Assembly (NCBI RefSeq): GCF_021800405.1
Contig: NZ_CP084550.1
Span: forward strand, 3,534,001-3,598,000
Direction of reading: 5' to 3'
Source of the DNA: Arthrobacter sp. FW306-07-I
GTDB lineage: Bacteria; Actinomycetota; Actinomycetes; Actinomycetales; Micrococcaceae
DNA length: 64,000 nucleotides
Position 1 is the first letter of the stretch. Each line of letters opens with the position of its first letter. The notes under the pieces are model-generated. The model was not told where the DNA came from, searched no databases, and worked only from the letters and a program-made list of their open reading frames with translations. Below, in pieces: positions 5,503-15,376 of this stretch. Made by a program: the position numbers and the translations under genes.

Positions 5503-6072
5503 ATGGCATTCCAGTCCGGCGGTGAAGAGCGGCACCCGTCCGCTCCCCCACCAAGGCCTGGCCCGTCCTACTCCACCCCGCCGCCCATTCCGGTTGTCAC
5601 CCCGCTGCCCGGGACAGTCCGCACTGCGCGCACTTTGTGGCTCTTCAGTTTCGGTGCGGGACTGGCCGTACTGCTGGGGTCCTTCGTGGCTCGTGATTCC
5701 AATCTGCAGCGGCTCCACGGCGTGGTGGCAAACATGGCGGCAGGCAGTGGCGCCGCGGCCGTAGGCAGGACGGCGGAGATCGTCTTCTGGGGAAGCATCG
5801 GCGCCCTGCTGCTGGTGACCCTGTTTGAGGCAGCAGTGCTCGCCGCCGTGCTGAACCGCCGGAACTGGGCCCGCTGGACCCTGCTCCCCCTGCTGGCCAG
5901 CCATGTCCTCATACTGCTCCTGGCGTCCGCCTTCCTGGTCCCGGCCGGTGCCGCCGGCAGCTACGTGGTGATGCTGTGGGGCGCCGGGCTGCTCCTGGCG
6001 GTAGCCGGGCTGGCGCTGCTGTTCCTGCCGTCTGCCGGGGCCTGGCTGAGGCCGGAGAGTGCCAGGGCTTGA
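5503..6072 (+). CDS. Hypothetical membrane protein, four helices
   Basis: A 189-residue protein without a recognised family. The first 45 residues are polar and proline-rich (PPPRPGPSYSTPPPIP), followed by four likely membrane helices near residues 45-63, 83-105, 120-142 and 148-170. No catalytic motif is visible. It begins 4 bp after the PLDc_N gene, so the two are probably translated together; the ATG is preceded only by a weak AGGG. It converges on the IniC-like gene that ends 24 bp further on. No function is proposed. Confidence 0.65.
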   Translation: MAFQSGGEERHPSAPPPRPGPSYSTPPPIPVVTPLPGTVRTARTLWLFSFGAGLAVLLGSFVARDSNLQRLHGVVANMAAGSGAAAVGRTAEIVFWGSIGALLLVTLFEAAVLAAVLNRRNWARWTLLPLLASHVLILLLASAFLVPAGAAGSYVVMLWGAGLLLAVAGLALLFLPSAGAWLRPESARA

Positions 6073-6095: not shown

Positions 6096-7589
6096 CTACG
6101 CCGACTTCGGCTGCCGGTTCCTCCCGGCGCATTCTGCCAGCACTCCCTCGCAGCTGCGGATCACCACCCGGCATGCCTCACCGGCTGACCGTGCCGTCAG
6201 CGGACTCTCAGCGATTGCGCGCCAGCGTGCCAGGCAGCGGCTCGCCTCAGCGGCCAGCACTTCCGGTCCGGCATCGGGCGCCACGGCCAGCCGGCGGTAT
6301 GCGGCGGCGCCCTGGCCTCCGACCAGCCGTTCAGCTTCCGCAGCCAGCTCCGGGGCAAGCTCCACCCCCGTGGTCCGCAGGGCCGCCAGCAGCCGGAGCT
6401 CGCGGAACTCATGCGCGTTGGCCTGCAGCCGCTCCAGGGATGCCGCCAGGTTTTCCGTCCCCTGGCGTGGCCGGCTGGCCAGGAGGTTTTCCACTGCCAC
6501 CAGGGCGGTCCGGGCCTTGAGCGCTTCCGCCCTGGCCTGGAACTGCCGGTCCAGCACATCCAGCAGGGTGTCCAGACCGCTCCGCCGGGCCAGCTCGTGG
6601 GCCAGCGGCGTGGGTTCGGCAAACCCGTTGCGGATCAGGACCACGGCCAGCCGGATCCCGAAAAGCCCGTAGCGTTCCAGCAGTGACACCCGCGCCTCTT
6701 CCGTCAGACCCGCCGGCCCGGCGGACCGGCGGAACCTGTCGGCGGAGAGCAGCATCCGTTCACGCTCGGCGCGGTCCAGGGTGGCCAGCAACCGCAGGGC
6801 TTCGAAGTCCGGTTGGCGAAGGGTACGGGCGCTTTGGGCCAGGAGCCCGGCCACCGGGACCACGCCGAGGGCCAGCTTCCGCAGGGTGGGGTCGCGGCTG
6901 TACCTCTCCGCGACATTGCCGGCGGACAGAAGGGAGTCGATGCGGCCGGCTCCCACCTCGTCTGCCCGGGACAGCACCGCGATGGAGTTGACCGTGCCCG
7001 AGCGGCCTGCCCCGGTGTCGCGGAAGGACTCCAGGAACCTCAGGTCGGACGCGTGCAGGTGGCGCATCAGGTAGATGACGGCGTCAGCCTCCGACGGCGA
7101 ATCCTCCGGGGTCAGGAACGCCAGGGACCGCGCGGACACGTCCTGGGAGACCGAAGCGATGCCGGGGGTGTCGATCAGGGTCATGGCCCGCAGTGCAGGC
7201 GCCGGCCATTCGACGTCGAGCCGTTCCACTTCTTCCGCACGTACGCCGTCGAGGACGAAGACCAGGCGCCCGTCCACTCGCTTCAGCGGCAGGTCCCGGG
7301 GCTCCCCTGCCGCGGGGTGGAGGGTGATGCGGGGCGTATGGCCGTGCCGGTACCAGGTGACGATCCGGGTGCACTCGCCGGTGTCCGTGGGGGCGATTTC
7401 CTCACCGATGATGCCATTCAGGAGCGTTGACTTGCCTGCCTTCACCATGCCGGCAACGGCAATCCGCAGCGGCTCTGCCAACCGCCGCGCATAGCCGTGC
7501 AGTTCCTGGGTGGTGTGCAGGTCATCGGCATATACCTCCAGCGCTTCCCGGATCAATGCTGCCGCCCCGGCCGTGGTGGACGCCGTCAT
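6096..7589 (-). CDS. iniC: Dynamin-like GTPase, IniC-like
   Basis: A 497-residue dynamin-family GTPase. The P-loop is GMVKAGKST (G47 to S54), the switch threonine lies in PTDTGECTR, G3 is DTPGIAS, and the base-recognition loop is the variant SRAD of IniC proteins. Mycobacterial IniC is of similar length and lies in the same position, directly after IniA. Members act at the inner face of the plasma membrane with IniA, in membrane fission or repair and in tolerance of cell-wall drugs. The C-terminal half is alpha-helical and leucine/alanine-rich, without an obvious membrane paddle. Start and upstream stop overlap as ATGA, so it is translationally coupled to the IniA-like gene. The symbol is given by analogy. 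Confidence 0.85.
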   Translation of the reverse strand: MTASTTAGAAALIREALEVYADDLHTTQELHGYARRLAEPLRIAVAGMVKAGKSTLLNGIIGEEIAPTDTGECTRIVTWYRHGHTPRITLHPAAGEPRDLPLKRVDGRLVFVLDGVRAEEVERLDVEWPAPALRAMTLIDTPGIASVSQDVSARSLAFLTPEDSPSEADAVIYLMRHLHASDLRFLESFRDTGAGRSGTVNSIAVLSRADEVGAGRIDSLLSAGNVAERYSRDPTLRKLALGVVPVAGLLAQSARTLRQPDFEALRLLATLDRAERERMLLSADRFRRSAGPAGLTEEARVSLLERYGLFGIRLAVVLIRNGFAEPTPLAHELARRSGLDTLLDVLDRQFQARAEALKARTALVAVENLLASRPRQGTENLAASLERLQANAHEFRELRLLAALRTTGVELAPELAAEAERLVGGQGAAAYRRLAVAPDAGPEVLAAEASRCLARWRAIAESPLTARSAGEACRVVIRSCEGVLAECAGRNRQPKSA

Positions 7590-9508
7590 CCCACCCCCGC
7601 CGCTGTCTGGGTCCTGGCTGCAGCTGCCTCGGCGGCTACGGCTTCTGCAGCCCGATGGAGCGCATCCACCTTTTTCAGCTCCGCCCTGATGTCCCGCACG
7701 CGTCCTTCCTTCTCCTGTGCGTACGAGTTCGCAGCCTTCTGCGCCGCGGCCACCGAGTCGGACAGCGACCGGTGGTATTCATCGGCGATCTCGGTGAAAT
7801 GGTCGCGGATGGTCCGCTGGACCAGGCGCAGCCTGTCCTTCAACTGCTTACCCACCTGGAACGTCACATCGTCCAGCTGCCGCCGCACCAAGGCTTTCGC
7901 CTCGCTCTGGCGCCGCTTCAGCCGGGTCTCCTTGTCCTCCCGGTAGGCCTTGCGCCCCAGCAGCAGCCCGGCACCCACGGACAGCGGGTTGATCAGGGCC
8001 ATCCCGAAGATCCCCGTCAGGAGGCCGAACATCAGGACGCCGCCGTAGGATCCCCGCATTCCGATGAGGACTTTTTGGACCGGGTTCACCCGGCCGGGAT
8101 CCAGCTGCGGCATCTGCTCCACCGGATCCAGGGCGTCCCCGGAGTCGGAGACATGCAGGACAGGCAGTGATACCTCGTCCGCCGCGAAGTGCTCAGCCAC
8201 TTGGGCCGCCAGCCATTGGGACCGTTCGCTGGTCCAGACAAACGTGTCCGAAACCGCTGCGGCAACGCACTCTTCGAGCCACTGCGAGAATTGCGGCCAC
8301 ACGGGACCGGGATCGCCCTGGTCGATGGCGTTCTCCGCTTCCCGTTGGATCCCGCGCAGGCGGTCCCGGAGGTCGTACTCCATGTCGGCGATCAGGTCGT
8401 TGATGCCGTCGCTGAGCGTGAGCTGCCAGCGGGCGGACCGCTTTCGCAGATGGTCCGCCTCCGCCCTGGCCTGTTCCAGTTCTGCGAGCATCTGGGGCGT
8501 GCCACCAGGGTTTTCCAGGGCGTCCAGCTCGGACTGCAGGGACAGCCTCAGGTTCCCGGTGACGGACAGCAGGTCCTGGCTCACGGAGCGGCGCTGGATC
8601 CGTTCTGCCTTCCCCACCACGTCATTGCGCAGGTGGGCCACCAAGGCCGGGTAGCCGGATTCGTCGTTGAGCTCACTGTCCTGGAGCCGCGCAGCCTCCA
8701 GCCGAAGGTCTGCGGAAAGTGGCAACAGCGGAATATCCGGCGCCACCTGGTCCAGGTGCGCCCTGTCCAGTTCCGCCACCCGCCGCCAGTCCGGATACAG
8801 GTCTGTTTTGGAAAGAATGGCGGCAACGCTGGGGGTAATCCGCATGGCCTGGCGCAGGAACCGCAGTTCCGGCTCCGTGTATTCCTGCGACGCGTCCGAT
8901 ACCAGCAGCATGGCGTCCGCGGTGGGCAGGGCCGTAAGGGTGGTCAAAGTGTGCGTGGAGCCCATGCCGCCCACGCCCGGGGAGTCGATGATGCTGAGTC
9001 CGCCGGTGAGGAGCCGTCGGGGCAGGCAGACCTCCGCGGCGGCTATTTTCCTGCTGTTTCCCGGGTTCCCCTGCTCGGAAACAAAGGCCGGCAGGTCGGT
9101 AAGCGCCACCGGCCGACGCTCAATGCCGCCGCCGGCAGCATCCCCGGCGGGGTCTTCCGCCGTGAAGATGTCCGCGGCGAAATTATCCGGGGCGGGGACC
9201 AGGACCGCGGCCGACGCCGGCTCCCCGTAACGGACCACCGTGGGGACGGAAGTGGCGATGTCGTCGTCCACGGGGCATACCGGGGCGTTCACCAGGGCAT
9301 TGATGAGTTTGCTCTTTCCCTGCTTGAACTCCCCCACGACAATGACCCTGATGCTCGGGTCCCGCAGGCGGGCACTGGCCTGCTCCAGCCTCCGGCGCAG
9401 GTCTGTGCGGTCCCCGCTGCCCACCAGCTGAAGGCCCTGCTCCACGAGCTTTCCCAACTGCCCGGCAGTGACGGGCCCCGGTGGCCTTGCCGGTGCTGCT
9501 TCTGCCAC
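7586..9508 (-). CDS. iniA: Dynamin-like GTPase, IniA-like
   Basis: A 640-residue bacterial dynamin-like protein, the same length I recall for mycobacterial IniA. Motifs are the P-loop GEFKQGKS (G59-S66), G2 threonine in DDDIATSVPT, G3 DSPGVGGMGS and G4 SKTD. A long helical stalk follows, then a hydrophobic hairpin near residues 478-508 (GVLMFGLLTGIFGMALINPL, then a GAGLLLGRKAY turn), the expected membrane-inserting paddle. A second coiled-coil half completes the bundle. IniA from Mycobacterium smegmatis is known to bind and cut membranes in a GTP-dependent way, so a plasma-membrane remodelling role is likely. It lies 125 bp after the IniB-like gene, with a hairpin between, and overlaps the IniC-like gene by 4 bp. 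Confidence 0.88.
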   Translation of the reverse strand: MAEAAPARPPGPVTAGQLGKLVEQGLQLVGSGDRTDLRRRLEQASARLRDPSIRVIVVGEFKQGKSKLINALVNAPVCPVDDDIATSVPTVVRYGEPASAAVLVPAPDNFAADIFTAEDPAGDAAGGGIERRPVALTDLPAFVSEQGNPGNSRKIAAAEVCLPRRLLTGGLSIIDSPGVGGMGSTHTLTTLTALPTADAMLLVSDASQEYTEPELRFLRQAMRITPSVAAILSKTDLYPDWRRVAELDRAHLDQVAPDIPLLPLSADLRLEAARLQDSELNDESGYPALVAHLRNDVVGKAERIQRRSVSQDLLSVTGNLRLSLQSELDALENPGGTPQMLAELEQARAEADHLRKRSARWQLTLSDGINDLIADMEYDLRDRLRGIQREAENAIDQGDPGPVWPQFSQWLEECVAAAVSDTFVWTSERSQWLAAQVAEHFAADEVSLPVLHVSDSGDALDPVEQMPQLDPGRVNPVQKVLIGMRGSYGGVLMFGLLTGIFGMALINPLSVGAGLLLGRKAYREDKETRLKRRQSEAKALVRRQLDDVTFQVGKQLKDRLRLVQRTIRDHFTEIADEYHRSLSDSVAAAQKAANSYAQEKEGRVRDIRAELKKVDALHRAAEAVAAEAAAARTQTAAGVG

Positions 9509-9561
9509 AGCGTGTCCCCCTGTCGGTGCCGAAAATTCCCAATGCCGGAAATACCGGAAGA

Positions 9562-9593
9562 GCCCGGCAGGAAGTGGATGCCTCCTGCCGGGC
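9562..9593 (-). terminator. Hairpin between iniB-like and iniA-like genes
   Basis: Perfect 11-bp arms, GCCCGGCAGGA (9562-9572) and TCCTGCCGGGC (9583-9593), with a 10-nt loop, in the 125-bp gap between the two genes. There is no U-tract on the minus strand. It could be a partial terminator or a processing/stability site that makes the first gene more abundant than the GTPases. Confidence 0.55.
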
Positions 9594-9633
9594 GGTTTGC
9601 CTCCCGCGAACAGCGTGTTGTTGGAATAGCGTG

Positions 9634-10746
9634 TTACAGCGCGGTGGAGTCGTCAACCACCGCATGGTCGATGGCGGTGTGGTTTTCCAGGTCCACATCC
9701 GTGTGGCTCGGGTTGTCCTCCGTGAAATCGAGCTGGTTGTCTGCAACCACCAGGTTGTCCTGCACGGTGTTCGTGGCCGAGTTGTCCTGGAAGGAGTCGT
9801 CAACGTGGACGTCCACCGCCGTGTTGGTGGAGTTGTCCGGGTTGAAGGAATCCTCCACCTCCACCGAGTTGTGGGTGGAGTTGTCGGAGTTGTCATTGAA
9901 CGAGTCGCGGACATCCAGGGCTGTGTCCGTGCTGACGGAGTGGTCCGAGTGGTCGGAGTAGTCCGAATGGTCCGAGTTGTCGTTGAAGGAGTCGTCCACA
10001 TCCAGGCCGACGTCGGTGTTGAAGGAATCGTCGGTGTTGAAGGAACCGGAAATGGCAGTCACCTCGTTGCCGATTCCAACGTCTCCGCCCGCGTGGATGG
10101 AGCTGTCCCTGGAGTTATCGGTCGAATGGTCGGCGTTGTACGAATCCCGAATGTTATTGGAGTCCCGGACACTGGCGTCGTCACCAGCCGCCACTGCGTA
10201 ATCTCCGGAGGCCACAACGGCATCATGGTCAAACCACTGCTCCACGTCCCCATGCGCCCAGATGTTTTGGTTGACGGACTGGTCCGTGGTGGTGTCCCGG
10301 TCGTCGAGCATGGTGGTGTTGGTCGTGTAGGAAAAGTGGTTCACCACGTGGTGCAGCTGCTGGACGGCGTGGGCGTGGTCGTCCTGGTCGTAGTCGGTCC
10401 CGCCCTGCCCCGGGCTGGGCCCGCCGCCATGGATGGCCGCGGCACTCCCGGCGTGCGCCGCCGTCGTGCCCGCCTGCCCGGATCCCATGTACCCGGACCC
10501 CGTGTGCCCTGCCCAGGCACTGTTTCCGCCGGTGTGATGTACCCGGTCCAGGGATGAGGCGTTGACGGTGATGGGGGCGTAGTCGAGGACGACCGGCATG
10601 GCGGCGTCCACGTCAGCCGAGCACACGTTGCCCAGGCCGTGTTCCGCCAATGCCCTCTCGGGGTCGTCCAGGAACTCCTGGATCGCTTCCCGGTTGCCGA
10701 AGAGCTGCATCAGGAACTGAACAAGGTCGTTTGCGAGTGTTGGCAT
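9634..10746 (-). CDS. iniB: IniB N-terminal domain protein with Asp/Asn/Ser repeats
   Basis: A 370-residue protein from the ATG at 10746, which has a GAGG site 9 nt upstream; an in-frame GTG 15 bp earlier overlaps that site and was not used. Residues 1-50 form the IniB-type N-terminal helical domain (MPTLANDLVQFLMQLFGNRE, then EFLDDPERALAEHGL). About 75 residues of Gly/Ala/His-rich linker follow. The rest is low-complexity Asp, Asn, Ser, Thr and Val with recurring DDSFN, RDSFN, EDSFN and HSD units, spaced 18 residues apart in the C-terminal part. There is no signal peptide or cysteine. Mycobacterial IniB is glycine-rich instead, so only the N-terminus is shared. Its function is unknown even in mycobacteria. 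It lies just upstream of the IniA-like and IniC-like GTPases. Confidence 0.82.
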   Translation of the reverse strand: MPTLANDLVQFLMQLFGNREAIQEFLDDPERALAEHGLGNVCSADVDAAMPVVLDYAPITVNASSLDRVHHTGGNSAWAGHTGSGYMGSGQAGTTAAHAGSAAAIHGGGPSPGQGGTDYDQDDHAHAVQQLHHVVNHFSYTTNTTMLDDRDTTTDQSVNQNIWAHGDVEQWFDHDAVVASGDYAVAAGDDASVRDSNNIRDSYNADHSTDNSRDSSIHAGGDVGIGNEVTAISGSFNTDDSFNTDVGLDVDDSFNDNSDHSDYSDHSDHSVSTDTALDVRDSFNDNSDNSTHNSVEVEDSFNPDNSTNTAVDVHVDDSFQDNSATNTVQDNLVVADNQLDFTEDNPSHTDVDLENHTAIDHAVVDDSTAL

Positions 10747-10911
10747 ATGCGTGGTCCTCACATCTTCTTGAAGTTGCGGATCATCCGGCGAAACGTACCC
10801 GGTTATCTCAACCTAGGTTCGCTGCCGGGGACAGGACATCGGGCGGTTTCCCCCTAGCAGCGGCCGCCGTTCCGGGGCGCCGGGCCTGGCACGCCTAGGG
10901 GTGTTAGGGGT
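10747..10911 (-). promoter_or_regulatory. Upstream region of the iniB-like gene with TAGGGG elements
   Basis: A 165-bp gap between the LuxR gene and the IniB-like gene, both minus strand. It contains two direct TAGGGG hexamers (10896-10901 and 10905-10910), an inverted copy (CCCCTA, near 10852-10857) and a perfect 10-bp palindrome AACCTAGGTT (10810-10819). These are candidate operator elements for the adjacent LuxR-type regulator. No confident -10/-35 pair was identified, so a separate iniB promoter is inferred from the gap and repeats only. Confidence 0.4.
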
Positions 10912-12999
10912 TCATTCCTGCTGCGGATTCAGCTGCTGGGAACTTTCCACGCCAAGTGCCAGGCGCAGGCGGGCCAGCAGGTCCGACCGGTTCTCCGCGC
11001 CGAGCCGGCGCCTGATCCGGGCGATGTGGTGCTCCGCCGTCCTGGGCGAAATGTAAATGGCCTCGCCGATTTCCCGGTAGGTTTTGCCCTCAAGCACCAG
11101 CCTGGCAACTTCCTTTTCGCGCTCGCTTAGGCCGGATGCGTCCGGCTGCGCGCCTTTGCCCACGCCGTCGGCACCGCTGCCTGCCTGCGCGTCGGCGCCC
11201 CCGGATGCTCCTGTGCTTCCCTGCGGATGCAGGTCCCGCGCGCAGGAGAGCAGGCGCATCATGTCCCGCCGTTCCTCTGCGCGGGCGGCTGCGTGTCCGG
11301 CCAGCCTGGCGCCCTCCCACGGCATTCCCACAGCTCCCAGCAGCCGGGCCGCGCCCTCCACCTCGGAAGTACGGAAACGGCCGGCCAGCACCGATACCCA
11401 GGCTTTGCCCGCCGTCGCCAGGACGGCGGCCAGCTGGCTGTGGGCCGAGGCCCTTGCCAGTGCCGTGGCGTGGGGGGCAAGATCGGCGGGGCTCTCATTG
11501 AGCAGCGCAGCCTGGACGGCGGCCCAGTGAAGGGGAACGGCCCACAACGCAGGTCCGCCCAGGCGCCCCAACAGCTTCCACGCGTCGTCCAGGTACTGCG
11601 CCACGCGGCGCGTCTCCCGCAGGCGGGCAGCGGCAATCAGCAGCTCCCCCCACGGCAGGAGGTTGTAGAGGTCCACCGACGTGTGCAGCATTGCCTCCCG
11701 TGCCCGCTCCCACGCCCTGAGCAGCTCCGGTACGTCTCCGTTGCGGCGGGCAAGTCCCACCTCCAGGGCGGCGGACATGAACTCGTCGCGCGGGACCAGC
11801 GGCCAGTGGTTGGCCTTGGCTGCTTCCGCTGCGGCAAACCGTGCGTCCTCGAGTTTGTCCTGCATCATGGCTGCCCAGGCCTGGAGCAGCAAAAGCCTGG
11901 GCTGCGCGGCATTGCCACCTTGCCCGGCCACCACCGCGGCCCGGCAGACTGTTTCCGCCAGGTGCGGCTCGCCGCTGTGCAAGGCCAGGAGGGCTGCCAG
12001 GGCGGCCGGCGTTTCCGGCAGCGGCAGGGCAATGCCCGCCGAGTTCAACATGTCTGATGCGTGGATCAGGATGGAGATGCCCTGCTGCGGCTTTTCGCCC
12101 AGAGATGCGAAGACTCCCTGGCCGGTCTGCACCAGGGCAGCCGCGAGGAGGGTCGGGGACGACGCCGGAGCATCCGGCTGGAAGAAGGCTTCGGCACCTG
12201 CCCGGTCTCCCGCACCGATCATGGCGACGGCGGCAAGGGGCGCCGAGGCACCTACGCGGCCTGGCCCCAACCAGTTGTAGACGTCGGCTGCGCGTGCCAG
12301 CATTCCCCGCTGCGCCCACACAGAGGCCGCTACGTCCGCGCCGCGACGCACGTCCGGCGGGTCCGCACTGACCAGGAGCGCGTCGATGATGCGGGCGGCG
12401 GTATCCAGTTCACCGTCGCCGGCCGCGGCCTGGGCGCGCCGGGCCGCCGTTGCCAGCGTGTCGGCACCTGCAAGGAGCGCTTCCTCGTAGAGCTGGGAGG
12501 CGAGCCTGGGGTCGCTTTCCAGCGCAGCGTTGGCCGCTTGCTCAAGTTCCGCTGCAACCCTGGAATCGGCGAGTCCGCCCCTGGCGAGGTCGCGCGCCAG
12601 GTTGCCAAGCGGTTGCCCGGTGGACGCGAAAACGCTCACGAGCTCCCGCTGGAGCGCGTGCACCTTGGCGGTTGGAGTGGCGGTCAACAGGGCGTGCTGG
12701 GCAGTCCCCACCACGGTGCCATCCGGCCTCAGCAGGCCCGCGGCCTCTGCCCTGTCCACTAAGGAGTCCAGGTCCTCCACGGTCCCGCTGATGAATTTGT
12801 GCTGGAGGTCTGCCGGGAGCGGTCCGGGCAAGGCGAAGCCCACCGACAGTGCCAGCAGCAGCTCACGTACTGCCGCGTTTGCGCCCTTCAACTGCTTGGC
12901 CATCAGCTCGGCTGAATGGGGCGGCGGCGGGTGCCCCTGGTGGTCCGGAGACGTGTGCAGGGGTACGGGGCGTTCCGCCCGCTGCAGGTGCGCATCCAT
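10912..12999 (-). CDS. LuxR-family transcriptional regulator (large, LAL-like without visible Walker motif)
   Basis: A 695-residue protein ending in a typical LuxR helix-turn-helix: LSEREKEVARLVLEGKTYRE, then IGEAIYISPRTAEHHIARIRRRLG, within the last 75 residues. The preceding 600 residues are alanine- and leucine-rich helical repeats (TPR-like), as in the signal-sensing arm of MalT-type regulators. No N-terminal Walker A is visible, so the NTPase module of true LAL/MalT proteins seems absent or lost. The ATG at 12999 is 1 nt after the hsp70 stop, implying translational coupling; an in-frame ATG at 12903 is an alternative. Mycobacterial iniBAC also has a LuxR-type regulator gene next to it, so this protein probably controls the genes that follow. 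Confidence 0.8.
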   Translation of the reverse strand: MDAHLQRAERPVPLHTSPDHQGHPPPPHSAELMAKQLKGANAAVRELLLALSVGFALPGPLPADLQHKFISGTVEDLDSLVDRAEAAGLLRPDGTVVGTAQHALLTATPTAKVHALQRELVSVFASTGQPLGNLARDLARGGLADSRVAAELEQAANAALESDPRLASQLYEEALLAGADTLATAARRAQAAAGDGELDTAARIIDALLVSADPPDVRRGADVAASVWAQRGMLARAADVYNWLGPGRVGASAPLAAVAMIGAGDRAGAEAFFQPDAPASSPTLLAAALVQTGQGVFASLGEKPQQGISILIHASDMLNSAGIALPLPETPAALAALLALHSGEPHLAETVCRAAVVAGQGGNAAQPRLLLLQAWAAMMQDKLEDARFAAAEAAKANHWPLVPRDEFMSAALEVGLARRNGDVPELLRAWERAREAMLHTSVDLYNLLPWGELLIAAARLRETRRVAQYLDDAWKLLGRLGGPALWAVPLHWAAVQAALLNESPADLAPHATALARASAHSQLAAVLATAGKAWVSVLAGRFRTSEVEGAARLLGAVGMPWEGARLAGHAAARAEERRDMMRLLSCARDLHPQGSTGASGGADAQAGSGADGVGKGAQPDASGLSEREKEVARLVLEGKTYREIGEAIYISPRTAEHHIARIRRRLGAENRSDLLARLRLALGVESSQQLNPQQE

Positions 13000-13000
13000 C

Positions 13001-15193
13001 TCAGGCCGCCGGAGCTGTGGTCGTGGCCGTGGCGACGGCAGTCTCAGTGGAGGCAGTGGTGATCTCCTCGGGCGTAGGTGCAGGCGCAACGGCAGGTGTG
13101 GGAGTCAGCTCGGTGGCCGTTGGCGTGACGAGCGCATCGCCAGTGGGGCCGGCGGCTGACATTGTTGCAGGCGTCATGCTGGGAGACGCGCTCTCGCTGG
13201 TCGGCGTCGCGGTGCCTGTGTCCGTGGGAACTGGACCGGAATTGAGAGTGGGACTAAGCGTGGGACTACTTGTCACCCCTGGTGATGTGCCGGGCGAGGC
13301 CGTGCCGGACGATGACGGGGCAGGCGATGTGGGCGGGGACGTTGTGGTCCCGGCTGCAGTAGTGGCAGGGGACGCGGGGACGGAGGTTGCAGGACTGGTC
13401 GGGAGAGGCTGCGAGAGGTCGGTAGGGCTTGCGGTGACAGTGGCAATGGAATCCGGAATGATGCCGGTGCCGGCCGCACCGGAGCCGGACAGCGTAGTCA
13501 GGGGAGCTCCCGCAGCGGGTCCACCGGCCTTCGCCCCACCGGGGGCGTTCCCGTCGCCGCTGCTCGCCGGCTTTCCGGCGGGCGGTGCGTAGGCAGCGGG
13601 TCCGGGCTCCTGGCTGAGCGGCTTCGTGGCGCTGGCTTCAACGCCCGCAAGGGGATGGGGAACGGCAACCACTGCTGCTCCCCCTGGATCGGGCGCTTCA
13701 GTTGTCCCTCCCCCGGTGGATCCACCCGTGGTGCTGGCCCCTGCCTGCGGCACGAACATCGCGGTCAGGCTCCCGAAGCCATCCGGACTTTGGGCGGCAG
13801 TGGCGGTAAGGACCGTAAGGACGGCAGCGGCCGCGGCGACGGCCGTGACCCGGACCGTGGGTTTCGGGGCGTGCGCGCCCCCTTTCCCGTGCAGCGCACT
13901 GCGGGAGGGCGCGGCAATGGCTCCTCCCGCCGTCGAATATTTACGCGACCAGCTGGGCCGTCCGGGGTGGCCCGTTCCAGGTGGCGCGCCGGAAGGCACG
14001 ACGGCGGCACGCGCCTCATCAGCGTCCGCTCCGCTTGATCCCGGCCCGGCCAGTGCCGCTTCAGTTTCGACCGCCTCAGCTTCCGCCGACGCCGATGCCT
14101 TTGCGGCAGCGGTGTGTGCCAGGAGCGCCGCCACGGCGGCGCCGAGGCAGATGGAGGACTTCGGGTCGGCGTCCACCGCGATGGGCCGGCCCAGCTGCTC
14201 GGACACCAGCTGTGCCACCAAGGGGATTCGGGACGAGCCCCCGATCAGCAGCACCGTGGACAGGTCTTCCGGCTCAAGGTGCAGTTGGGCCAGGGAGTGT
14301 TCCAGTGCCGCCACCGTTTCCCGCACGGGCTCTTCGATCAGCGCTTCGAACTCGGAACGGACCAGGCGGACCTGCTGCTGGACGCCCGGCAGGAGTACCG
14401 GGATACTTGCCTCGCTGTCAGCGGACAGGGCTTCCTTGGCCTCCACGCATTCGCGCCGTAACCGCGTCAGGGCGCCAAGCACCACGGGGTCGGTGGCGTC
14501 GAGGCTGTCCAGTGCGTTCCCGCTGTGGCCTGCCACGTAGCGGAAGACCGCAGCGTCAAAGTCGGCTCCGCCCAGGTCTTCGATTCCCTCCGGGCGTCCC
14601 ACGAGTTCAAAGCGACTGCTGCCGGACTTCCGCAGGACAGCGGTATCGAAGGTGCCGCCACCGAGGTCGTAAACGGCGATGGTGCTGCCTTCCTCCACCC
14701 GCACCTGCGACGCGTAGTGCAGGGCCGCGGCCTCCGGTTCGGGGAGGAGTGTCACGTTCTCCAGGCCGTGGGAACTGAGGGCGTCCCGCACCACGGACAG
14801 GCGGTGGCTGCCCCAGGCTGCAGGGTGGGTCAGGAAGAAGGCCGACGCCGGGCCCCCTTCACGTTCGGCGGCGCGGTCTGCCACCCACCGGGCCATGGTG
14901 GCGAAGACGTCCTCAGGCTGCAGCGCCAGGCTGCCCAGGATGATGGGTACGTCGTCGCCAATCCGGCGCTTGAATTCCCGGACCACTCGCTCCGGTGTGT
15001 CCAGCCCGCGGCGTTCGGCGGCCTCGCCCACCAGGACAGTGCCTTCCTCCGGGTAGTACAGCACGGAGGGGACGGACGCTCCACGGGCGCCGAGGGGAAG
15101 GCACTCGGGCACGGGGGAAGCACCTTGGTGAAAGCGTACAACCGCGGCTGCCGTGAAACTCGTCCCGACGTCTACGGCGAGGGCGTAGCTCAT
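13001..15193 (-). CDS. Hsp70-like ATPase with membrane segment and Ser/Thr/Pro-rich tail
   Basis: A 730-residue protein. Residues 1-370 form an actin/Hsp70-type ATPase domain with phosphate-1 loop AVDVGTSFTAAAV, phosphate-2 loop AVYDLGGGTFDTAVL and adenosine motif VLLIGGSSRIPLVAQLV. No DnaK substrate-binding domain follows. There is instead an Ala/Glu-rich linker, one hydrophobic segment near residues 445-467, and about 260 residues of Ser, Thr, Pro and Ala, presumably extracytoplasmic. The ATG at 15193 has GAGG 6 nt upstream; an in-frame TTG 33 bp earlier was rejected. Single-pass Hsp70-like proteins of this design occur in actinobacteria without known function. It is the first gene of the block that includes the LuxR and Ini-like genes. 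Confidence 0.85.
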   Translation of the reverse strand: MSYALAVDVGTSFTAAAVVRFHQGASPVPECLPLGARGASVPSVLYYPEEGTVLVGEAAERRGLDTPERVVREFKRRIGDDVPIILGSLALQPEDVFATMARWVADRAAEREGGPASAFFLTHPAAWGSHRLSVVRDALSSHGLENVTLLPEPEAAALHYASQVRVEEGSTIAVYDLGGGTFDTAVLRKSGSSRFELVGRPEGIEDLGGADFDAAVFRYVAGHSGNALDSLDATDPVVLGALTRLRRECVEAKEALSADSEASIPVLLPGVQQQVRLVRSEFEALIEEPVRETVAALEHSLAQLHLEPEDLSTVLLIGGSSRIPLVAQLVSEQLGRPIAVDADPKSSICLGAAVAALLAHTAAAKASASAEAEAVETEAALAGPGSSGADADEARAAVVPSGAPPGTGHPGRPSWSRKYSTAGGAIAAPSRSALHGKGGAHAPKPTVRVTAVAAAAAVLTVLTATAAQSPDGFGSLTAMFVPQAGASTTGGSTGGGTTEAPDPGGAAVVAVPHPLAGVEASATKPLSQEPGPAAYAPPAGKPASSGDGNAPGGAKAGGPAAGAPLTTLSGSGAAGTGIIPDSIATVTASPTDLSQPLPTSPATSVPASPATTAAGTTTSPPTSPAPSSSGTASPGTSPGVTSSPTLSPTLNSGPVPTDTGTATPTSESASPSMTPATMSAAGPTGDALVTPTATELTPTPAVAPAPTPEEITTASTETAVATATTTAPAA

Positions 15194-15299
15194 GGTGACC
15201 TCGAAAGGCTGGTGGTCCACATGCAAGCTTCATCACAGTGAACAGTCACCAAATTAGCATTCCCAGGGACCGGGGAACACCCCTGTTGCTACAACGAAT

Positions 15300-15376
15300 G
15301 GTGATACGGCAGGTGGCTGCCGTATCACCGATCGATTTCGGGCCTTAAGACCCGTAAAACCAGCGGGTCTTAAGGC
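15300..15376 (-). terminator. Two tandem perfect hairpins after ccsB
   Basis: Hairpin 1 (minus-strand order) has 13-bp arms at 15364-15376 and 15342-15354 with a 9-nt loop. Hairpin 2 has 12-bp arms at 15318-15329 and 15300-15311 with a 6-nt loop. Both are perfect and lie between the ccsB stop (15382) and the hsp70 start (15193). They probably end the cytochrome c biogenesis transcript. U-tracts are poor, as is common in high-GC actinobacteria. Confidence 0.7.

Follow-up and report, generated by a model that had tools for sequence, protein, structure and literature searches.

An Hsp70-Type ATPase Gene, a Shortened iniR and iniBAC Homologues in Arthrobacter: A Possible Envelope-Stress Module

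Gene content of the locus

The window analyzed here is a 64,000-nt stretch of the genome of Arthrobacter sp. FW306-07-I (contig NZ_CP084550.1, positions 3,534,001 to 3,598,000; positions below are those of the window). Between 6096 and 15193 it carries five minus-strand open reading frames, all present where the original prediction, made from the sequence alone, had put them: an Hsp70-type protein (730 aa, 13001..15193; PF00012, E = 2.8e-44), an IniR-like LuxR/GerE regulator (695 aa, 10912..12999; NF038181, E = 6.7e-116), an IniB-like protein (9634..10761), an IniA-like dynamin GTPase (640 aa, 7586..9508) and an IniC-like dynamin GTPase (497 aa, 6096..7589). The Hsp70 stop codon and the iniR start codon are separated by a single nucleotide (TGA-G-ATG), the spacing that had been claimed. 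A further gene, which encodes a 189-aa membrane protein, lies on the plus strand at 5503..6072, convergent with iniC. While the five genes stand, their description as one block changes in two respects, as this sixth gene is added and as a promoter-like element in the 150-nt gap between iniR and iniB speaks against a single unit. The locus is a variant of the IniR-iniBAC system and would constitute a six-gene envelope-stress module, a reading to which we give about even weight.

The assignment of the three downstream genes to IniB and two dynamin-like GTPases is borne out by profile matches. The N-terminal domain of the IniB-like protein matches NF038175 with E = 8e-18, which exceeds the cut-off of that model, and its tail is acidic and rich in Asp, Asn, Ser, Thr and His (pI 4.1). 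Translation of iniB probably starts five codons later than annotated above, at 10746, because the ATG at that position sits behind a GAGG and coincides with the start in relatives. The IniA-like and IniC-like proteins match Dynamin_N with E-values of 4.4e-18 and 8.9e-13, respectively, and residues 18–614 of the former match the solved structure of Mycobacterium smegmatis IniA (PDB 6j72, E = 1.1e-144). The reading frames of iniC and iniA overlap by 4 nt, and the two genes also adjoin in relatives. The IniBAC effector set is complete and in order: IniB N-terminal domain, IniA dynamin, IniC dynamin.

The 189-aa membrane protein belongs to the module as its sixth member. The regions fetched contain 69 homologues, every one of them convergent with, and directly downstream of, iniC; in ten loci of the genus, three of them cut short, none was found. 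The protein stays below the cut-off of every Pfam and NCBIfam model.

The regulator lacks the N-terminal P-loop domain of IniR

IniR of Mycobacterium marinum is described as composed of an ATPase domain (residues 24–247), a MalT-like domain and a LuxR-type helix-turn-helix (HTH), and M. tuberculosis IniR is described as binding directly in front of iniBAC, with IniR expression alone sufficing for induction (PMC5760070). The LuxR protein of the window aligns with the NCBIfam IniR model NF038181 only over model positions 218–824 of 827, at a score of 388.6 bits, below the curated cut-off of 750 bits, which is exceeded in 18 of 394 genomes of the class. The aligned part retains the MalT-like region and the C-terminal LuxR HTH, the latter found as a GerE match at residues 623–674 (E = 1.6e-12). 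A search for a P-loop found none in the window protein and none in the same-genus loci fetched. The distance from the Hsp70 stop codon to the conserved IniR core is 80 nt in the window, compared with 436–667 nt in those class-sample loci where Hsp70 precedes an IniR with a P-loop, which indicates that the ATPase domain is physically gone. The protein is, as judged from these alignments, an IniR homologue minus its N-terminal P-loop ATPase domain. The original prediction, which overlooked the missing domain, had cast it as the control part of the system, and this role is well supported by its homology to an activator of iniBAC established by experiment; the activator function itself is carried over from mycobacterial IniR by that homology.

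The Hsp70-type protein carries a predicted membrane segment and an intact catalytic core

The Hsp70-type protein consists of a nucleotide-binding domain (residues ~1–370), a linker, a predicted membrane segment (residues ~447–467) and a 260-residue tail that is rich in Ser, Thr, Pro, Ala and Gly. Ser, Thr and Pro together make up 47% of this tail, and Arg is absent from it. The best stretch of the PF00012 match covers profile positions 107–373 of 599, the PDB matches (best 60 of 115) end at residues 355–367, and neither PF00012 nor PDB matching revealed a substrate-binding domain in this protein. It is not the DnaK of this genome, which is located elsewhere (118 versus 793 bits). When the two are aligned, the catalytic positions D, T, K, E, D and T are intact in the window protein, as they are in 68 of 71 Micrococcaceae rows, a set made up of a census of 70 to which the degenerate L159 was added back and from which L137, of another family, was excluded; the exceptions are L135, which is a frameshifted assembly, L150 and L159.

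Basic residues stand just before the hydrophobic segment near residue 447. Hydropathy and charge predict a topology in which the ATPase is cytoplasmic and the tail is outside the cell. A simple hydropathy scan of relatives also flagged weaker segments in some and none in a few. The Hsp70-type protein may be the sensing part of the system, with the Ser/Thr/Pro tail reading the cell wall, as had originally been proposed.

Upstream of the Hsp70 gene, a dyad AGGGGTGTTCCCC is located at 15272..15284 (minus strand); it occurs in part of 17 loci, is degraded in others, such as Paenarthrobacter, and weakly hints at autoregulation. Between ccsB and the Hsp70 gene there is also a 13-bp perfect hairpin at 15300–15329, which probably marks where the cytochrome c biogenesis unit upstream terminates.

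Hsp70, IniR and IniA occur together across genomes

Hsp70, IniR and IniA are present together in the same 33 of 61 same-genus genomes, which are related, so that the 33 carriers are not independent, and the remaining 28 genomes have none of the three. Full-length IniR was counted in this census only above 700 bits, since the HTH alone gives a match in every genome. Among 394 genomes of the class, IniR was found in 38 and IniA in 47, with all 38 included in the 47, and in 28 of the 38 the gene immediately upstream of IniR is Hsp70. The linkage of the Hsp70 and LuxR genes with iniBAC, on which the original prediction depended, is therefore conserved, being all-or-none in the genus and common class-wide, and the linkage of IniR to iniBAC holds in both samples. 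In most of the fetched loci Hsp70 comes before iniR, with both genes on one strand, and in the same-genus junctions listed an ATG or GTG always follows the Hsp70 stop codon by 1–3 nt. A conserved read-through or frame fusion of the two genes was considered and dismissed, as many loci have both in the same frame, yet frames 0, 1 and 2 all occur.

Other arrangements of these genes were observed in passing. In some mycobacteria-like genomes (L160, L162 and L164) a further Hsp70 follows iniR, and in family f25 (L196, L199, L201, L202 and L203) an IniA/IniC pair is accompanied by a divergent short LuxR-HTH gene in the place of IniR.

Insertion sites were compared in ten of the 28 block-free genus genomes. 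In three the flanking genes are joined, with neither the block nor the 189-aa gene between them; in the other seven (L229–L233, L235 and L236) neither the block nor the expected flank was found within 1.5 kb of ccsB. The joined flanks would fit ordinary clustering, as would the presence of the block in 33 of 61 genomes, a distribution to be expected if the set is mobile or has been lost repeatedly; the genes would then travel as an island, and the Hsp70-type protein would be an unrelated ATPase that plays no direct part in controlling iniBAC. We consider this explanation very improbable, as the same module neighbors recur in several families outside the genus, where the ccsB/menA flanks are absent, the spacing to iniR is tight, and the Hsp70-type protein is distinct from DnaK.

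Repeated P-loop loss and its relation to Hsp70 catalytic residues

Of 110 IniR loci, 67 were scored as P-loop-less, and 63 were left after the removal of four with a partial or split IniR (L151, L158, L186 and L192), which were also dropped from the tree; the frameshifted assemblies L117 and L135 were retained in the count. Hsp70 lies upstream in 61 of the 63, the other two loci (L113 and L122) being cut off by the contig edge. Lineages without the P-loop are the Arthrobacter group, part of a second Micrococcaceae genus, two family f11 genomes and a single genome from family f34. A tree of the IniR core from 62 of the 110 loci contains four changes of P-loop state, with at least three forced by well-supported branches. 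As the P-loop is widely spread, the changes most probably represent losses, about four and at least three in number.

The converse situation is found in genus g49, presumably Mycobacterium given that the 18 genomes in it that match IniR score above the cut-off of the model. There, all Hsp70 rows tested are catalytically degenerate, while IniR keeps its P-loop; the changes in these mycobacteria-like rows include D to S, K to V, E to D and T to G. The catalytic table as a whole covers 43 places in 51 rows, with some loci giving two rows and many rows being close kin. A P-loop IniR is paired with a degenerate Hsp70 in 23 rows and an IniR without P-loop with an intact Hsp70 in 10; a P-loop IniR together with an intact Hsp70 is also common (12 rows), 3 rows have neither, and the remaining 3, two loci and the DnaK used as reference, have no IniR. 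One Arthrobacter-group genome, G032, has two whole sets of reciprocal form: in the first (L133) IniR is without a P-loop and Hsp70 is intact, and in the second (L159, G032:C1:143000-162900) IniR has a P-loop and Hsp70 is degenerate.

The rows with neither a P-loop nor an intact Hsp70 derive from L182, L184 and L185. They rule out a strict reciprocal rule in which one ATPase is always intact, so that an active ATPase is not strictly required and the pattern is a tendency rather than a rule. Together with the degeneracy of every mycobacteria-like row in the table, these three loci would be accommodated if the nucleotide folds served as binding modules whose ATPase decay is neutral, with the Hsp70-type protein acting as a membrane tether for IniR. 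Such a pseudo-ATPase scaffold seems improbable to us, because the retention of catalytic residues in nearly all Micrococcaceae rows suggests purifying selection on activity there.

A conserved element precedes iniB

The 150-nt gap between iniR and iniB was aligned for the window and 16 loci of the genus. It contains, on the minus strand, two CCCCTA repeats (10896..10910), followed by a conserved element TAGGGGG-N6-CCCGATG (10837..10856) and a −10-like hexamer TAGGTT (10810..10815; TACGTT in relatives), of which the T, A, T and T columns are invariant. A looser form of the element is present in 47 of 54 genus loci, and over the 150 nt that follow iniR, the 54 loci have 2.41 copies of CCCCTA/TAGGGG, versus 0.033 per 150 nt in the window as a whole. 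Three relatives with a P-loop IniR (L137, L191 and L194) have a near or perfect palindrome, GCATCGGGG..CCCCGATGC. The element was not seen on the iniB side of most mycobacteria-like loci.

On the basis of its positional conservation, the element is a likely IniR operator, and the aligned CCCCTA repeats upstream of it are possible further operator half-sites. The hexamer is a putative −10 element of an iniB promoter; a scan with the sigma-70 consensus found no promoter in the gap, and it is conservation that suggests a separate iniBAC promoter and two transcription units. A single five-gene operon is accordingly not favored.

Proposed mechanism

We propose that the regulatory part of the module pairs an IniR-type activator with a co-translated, membrane-anchored Hsp70-type ATPase, and that its effector part comprises IniB, the two dynamins and the small membrane protein. 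The Hsp70-type protein would keep IniR on the cytoplasmic side of the membrane, and its outer tail and membrane segment would influence its nucleotide state, which would release or activate IniR. IniR would then bind the CCCCTA/TAGGGGG-CCGATG element and switch on iniBAC, and the IniA and IniC dynamins would remodel the membrane. That the Hsp70-type protein tethers or switches IniR in this manner is suggested by the coupling of the genes, the predicted topology and the loss of the ATPase of IniR itself, and the case for a six-gene module that works in this way appears to us evenly poised. Gene content, conserved coupling, the missing ATPase domain, the intact catalytic residues of Hsp70 and the conserved promoter-like element are observed; that the two proteins touch, which of them controls the other, what the signal is and which sequence serves as operator are elements that we infer. 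With the P-loop ATPase of IniR lost, the Hsp70-type protein would be the only ATPase on the regulatory side in this lineage. More tentatively, and with less confidence than in the mechanism above, the Hsp70-type protein without a substrate-binding domain could act as a transmembrane receptor and, through its ATPase cycle, take the place of the STAND NTPase that IniR has lost, such that the nucleotide switch of a one-component regulator has moved into a separate, membrane-spanning, chaperone-derived ATPase.

Several observations weigh against the proposed tethering and switching of IniR, in addition to the three loci without either ATPase. The operator pattern taken by itself is not specific in the genome, with 6 matches compared with 10 for a reversed control. 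The only protein found to join Hsp70 and IniR domains among the matches listed (120 of 166) is P0242 (1495 aa, with a P-loop IniR), which looks frameshifted; no second one was among them. It was not accepted as proof of contact, since it is one sequence on one contig with an Arg/Pro-rich junction, such as a frameshift running through the tail would produce, and since its single membrane segment would place IniR outside the cell. Of the 38 class genomes with IniR, 8 have Hsp70 at another place in the region, in many cases next to the dynamins, and in two it was not found in the fetched region (L174 and L178); the genome of L178 has an Hsp70 next to IniA, but on a different contig (L204). Dynamin pairs with no detected IniR (L195, L198, L221 and L227) are accompanied by Hsp70 as well, and distance correlations do not favor IniR over IniC, as Hsp70 correlates with both.

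These last points bring in the strongest rival explanation, in which the Hsp70-type protein is on the effector side and scaffolds or recycles IniA and IniC at the membrane, the coupling to iniR only securing co-expression. Besides the dynamin pairs without detected IniR, it is favored by loci in which Hsp70 stands beside the dynamins and not beside IniR (L172, L175, L179–L181, L186, L192 and L193), by the second Hsp70 located directly after iniC in mycobacteria-like loci (L165–L168 and L176), and by partial distance correlations that are higher for Hsp70–IniC than for Hsp70–IniR both in 93 loci (0.48 versus 0.14) and in 65 Micrococcaceae loci (0.61 versus 0.47). In 47 genus loci, however, the partial correlation is no lower for IniR (0.41) than for IniC (0.36), with overlapping ranges, the direct upstream coupling to iniR in most class genomes with IniR speaks for the regulatory side, and the repeated loss of the IniR ATPase is left unexplained. 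We regard an effector-side role as possible, though rather unlikely. Of the nine class genomes with IniA but no IniR, two have an Hsp70 in the fetched region (L195 and L198), and in three others (G354, G377 and G440) an Hsp70 lies ~11–14 kb from IniA on the same contig; Hsp70 may be tied to the dynamins as widely as to IniR.

Two further observations concern these Hsp70 genes. The second Hsp70 after iniC, which is on the iniC strand, is catalytically degenerate in the four loci tested (L165, L166, L168 and L176). L221 and L227 are distant clusters of Hsp70 and a dynamin pair, without detected IniR, from other actinobacterial families.

Relation to known systems

Proposed tethering and switching of IniR by the Hsp70-type protein has a working analogy in MalT, which is held by a membrane-bound transporter ATPase. 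Like MalT and the large ATP-dependent LuxR regulators, the window IniR has a MalT-like region followed by a LuxR HTH at the C terminus; unlike these STAND-type proteins it has no P-loop NTPase, and its partner, unlike the ABC partner of MalT, is an actin-fold ATPase. With DnaK/Hsp70 chaperones this partner shares the nucleotide-binding domain and catalytic residues, whereas it differs from DnaK by the absence of a substrate-binding domain and the presence of a predicted membrane segment and outer tail. The Arthrobacter-type envelope is not known to contain mycolic acids, so the stress may differ from the mycobacterial one.

The closest known system is mycobacterial IniR-iniBAC (Rv0339c / MMAR_0612), in which the regulator responds to trehalose and cell-wall drugs. 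It likewise brings together an IniR-type regulator, IniB, IniA and IniC, and Boot et al. 2017 describe for it an IniR that binds in front of iniBAC and induces it; the comparison of IniR with MalT is also drawn there (PMC5760070). The effector similarity extends to the structurally characterized M. smegmatis IniA (PDB 6j72; PMC6715688), over the residues given above. The window differs from the mycobacterial system in that its IniR is without the ATPase domain and precedes iniB on the same strand, and in that the Hsp70 neighbor of IniR has intact catalytic residues, unlike the degenerate mycobacteria-like rows. The original prediction held the organization with Hsp70 first to be undescribed, which calls for one qualification: Boot et al. 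2017 remark that iniR of M. smegmatis has a dnaK-like neighbor (PMC5760070). Apart from this one mention of such a pairing, no description of a truncated IniR with a linked membrane Hsp70 was found in text searches of the open-licence literature. Mycobacterial IniR/IniBAC is thus already known, and what is new is the constant partnership with Hsp70 and the repeated loss of the ATPase domain.

A membrane-anchored Hsp70 with an outer tail, its catalytic core intact or degenerate according to lineage, is a concrete candidate for the sensor of this system, and soil bacteria that combine a P-loop-less IniR with an intact Hsp70 would offer a clean model in which to test it.

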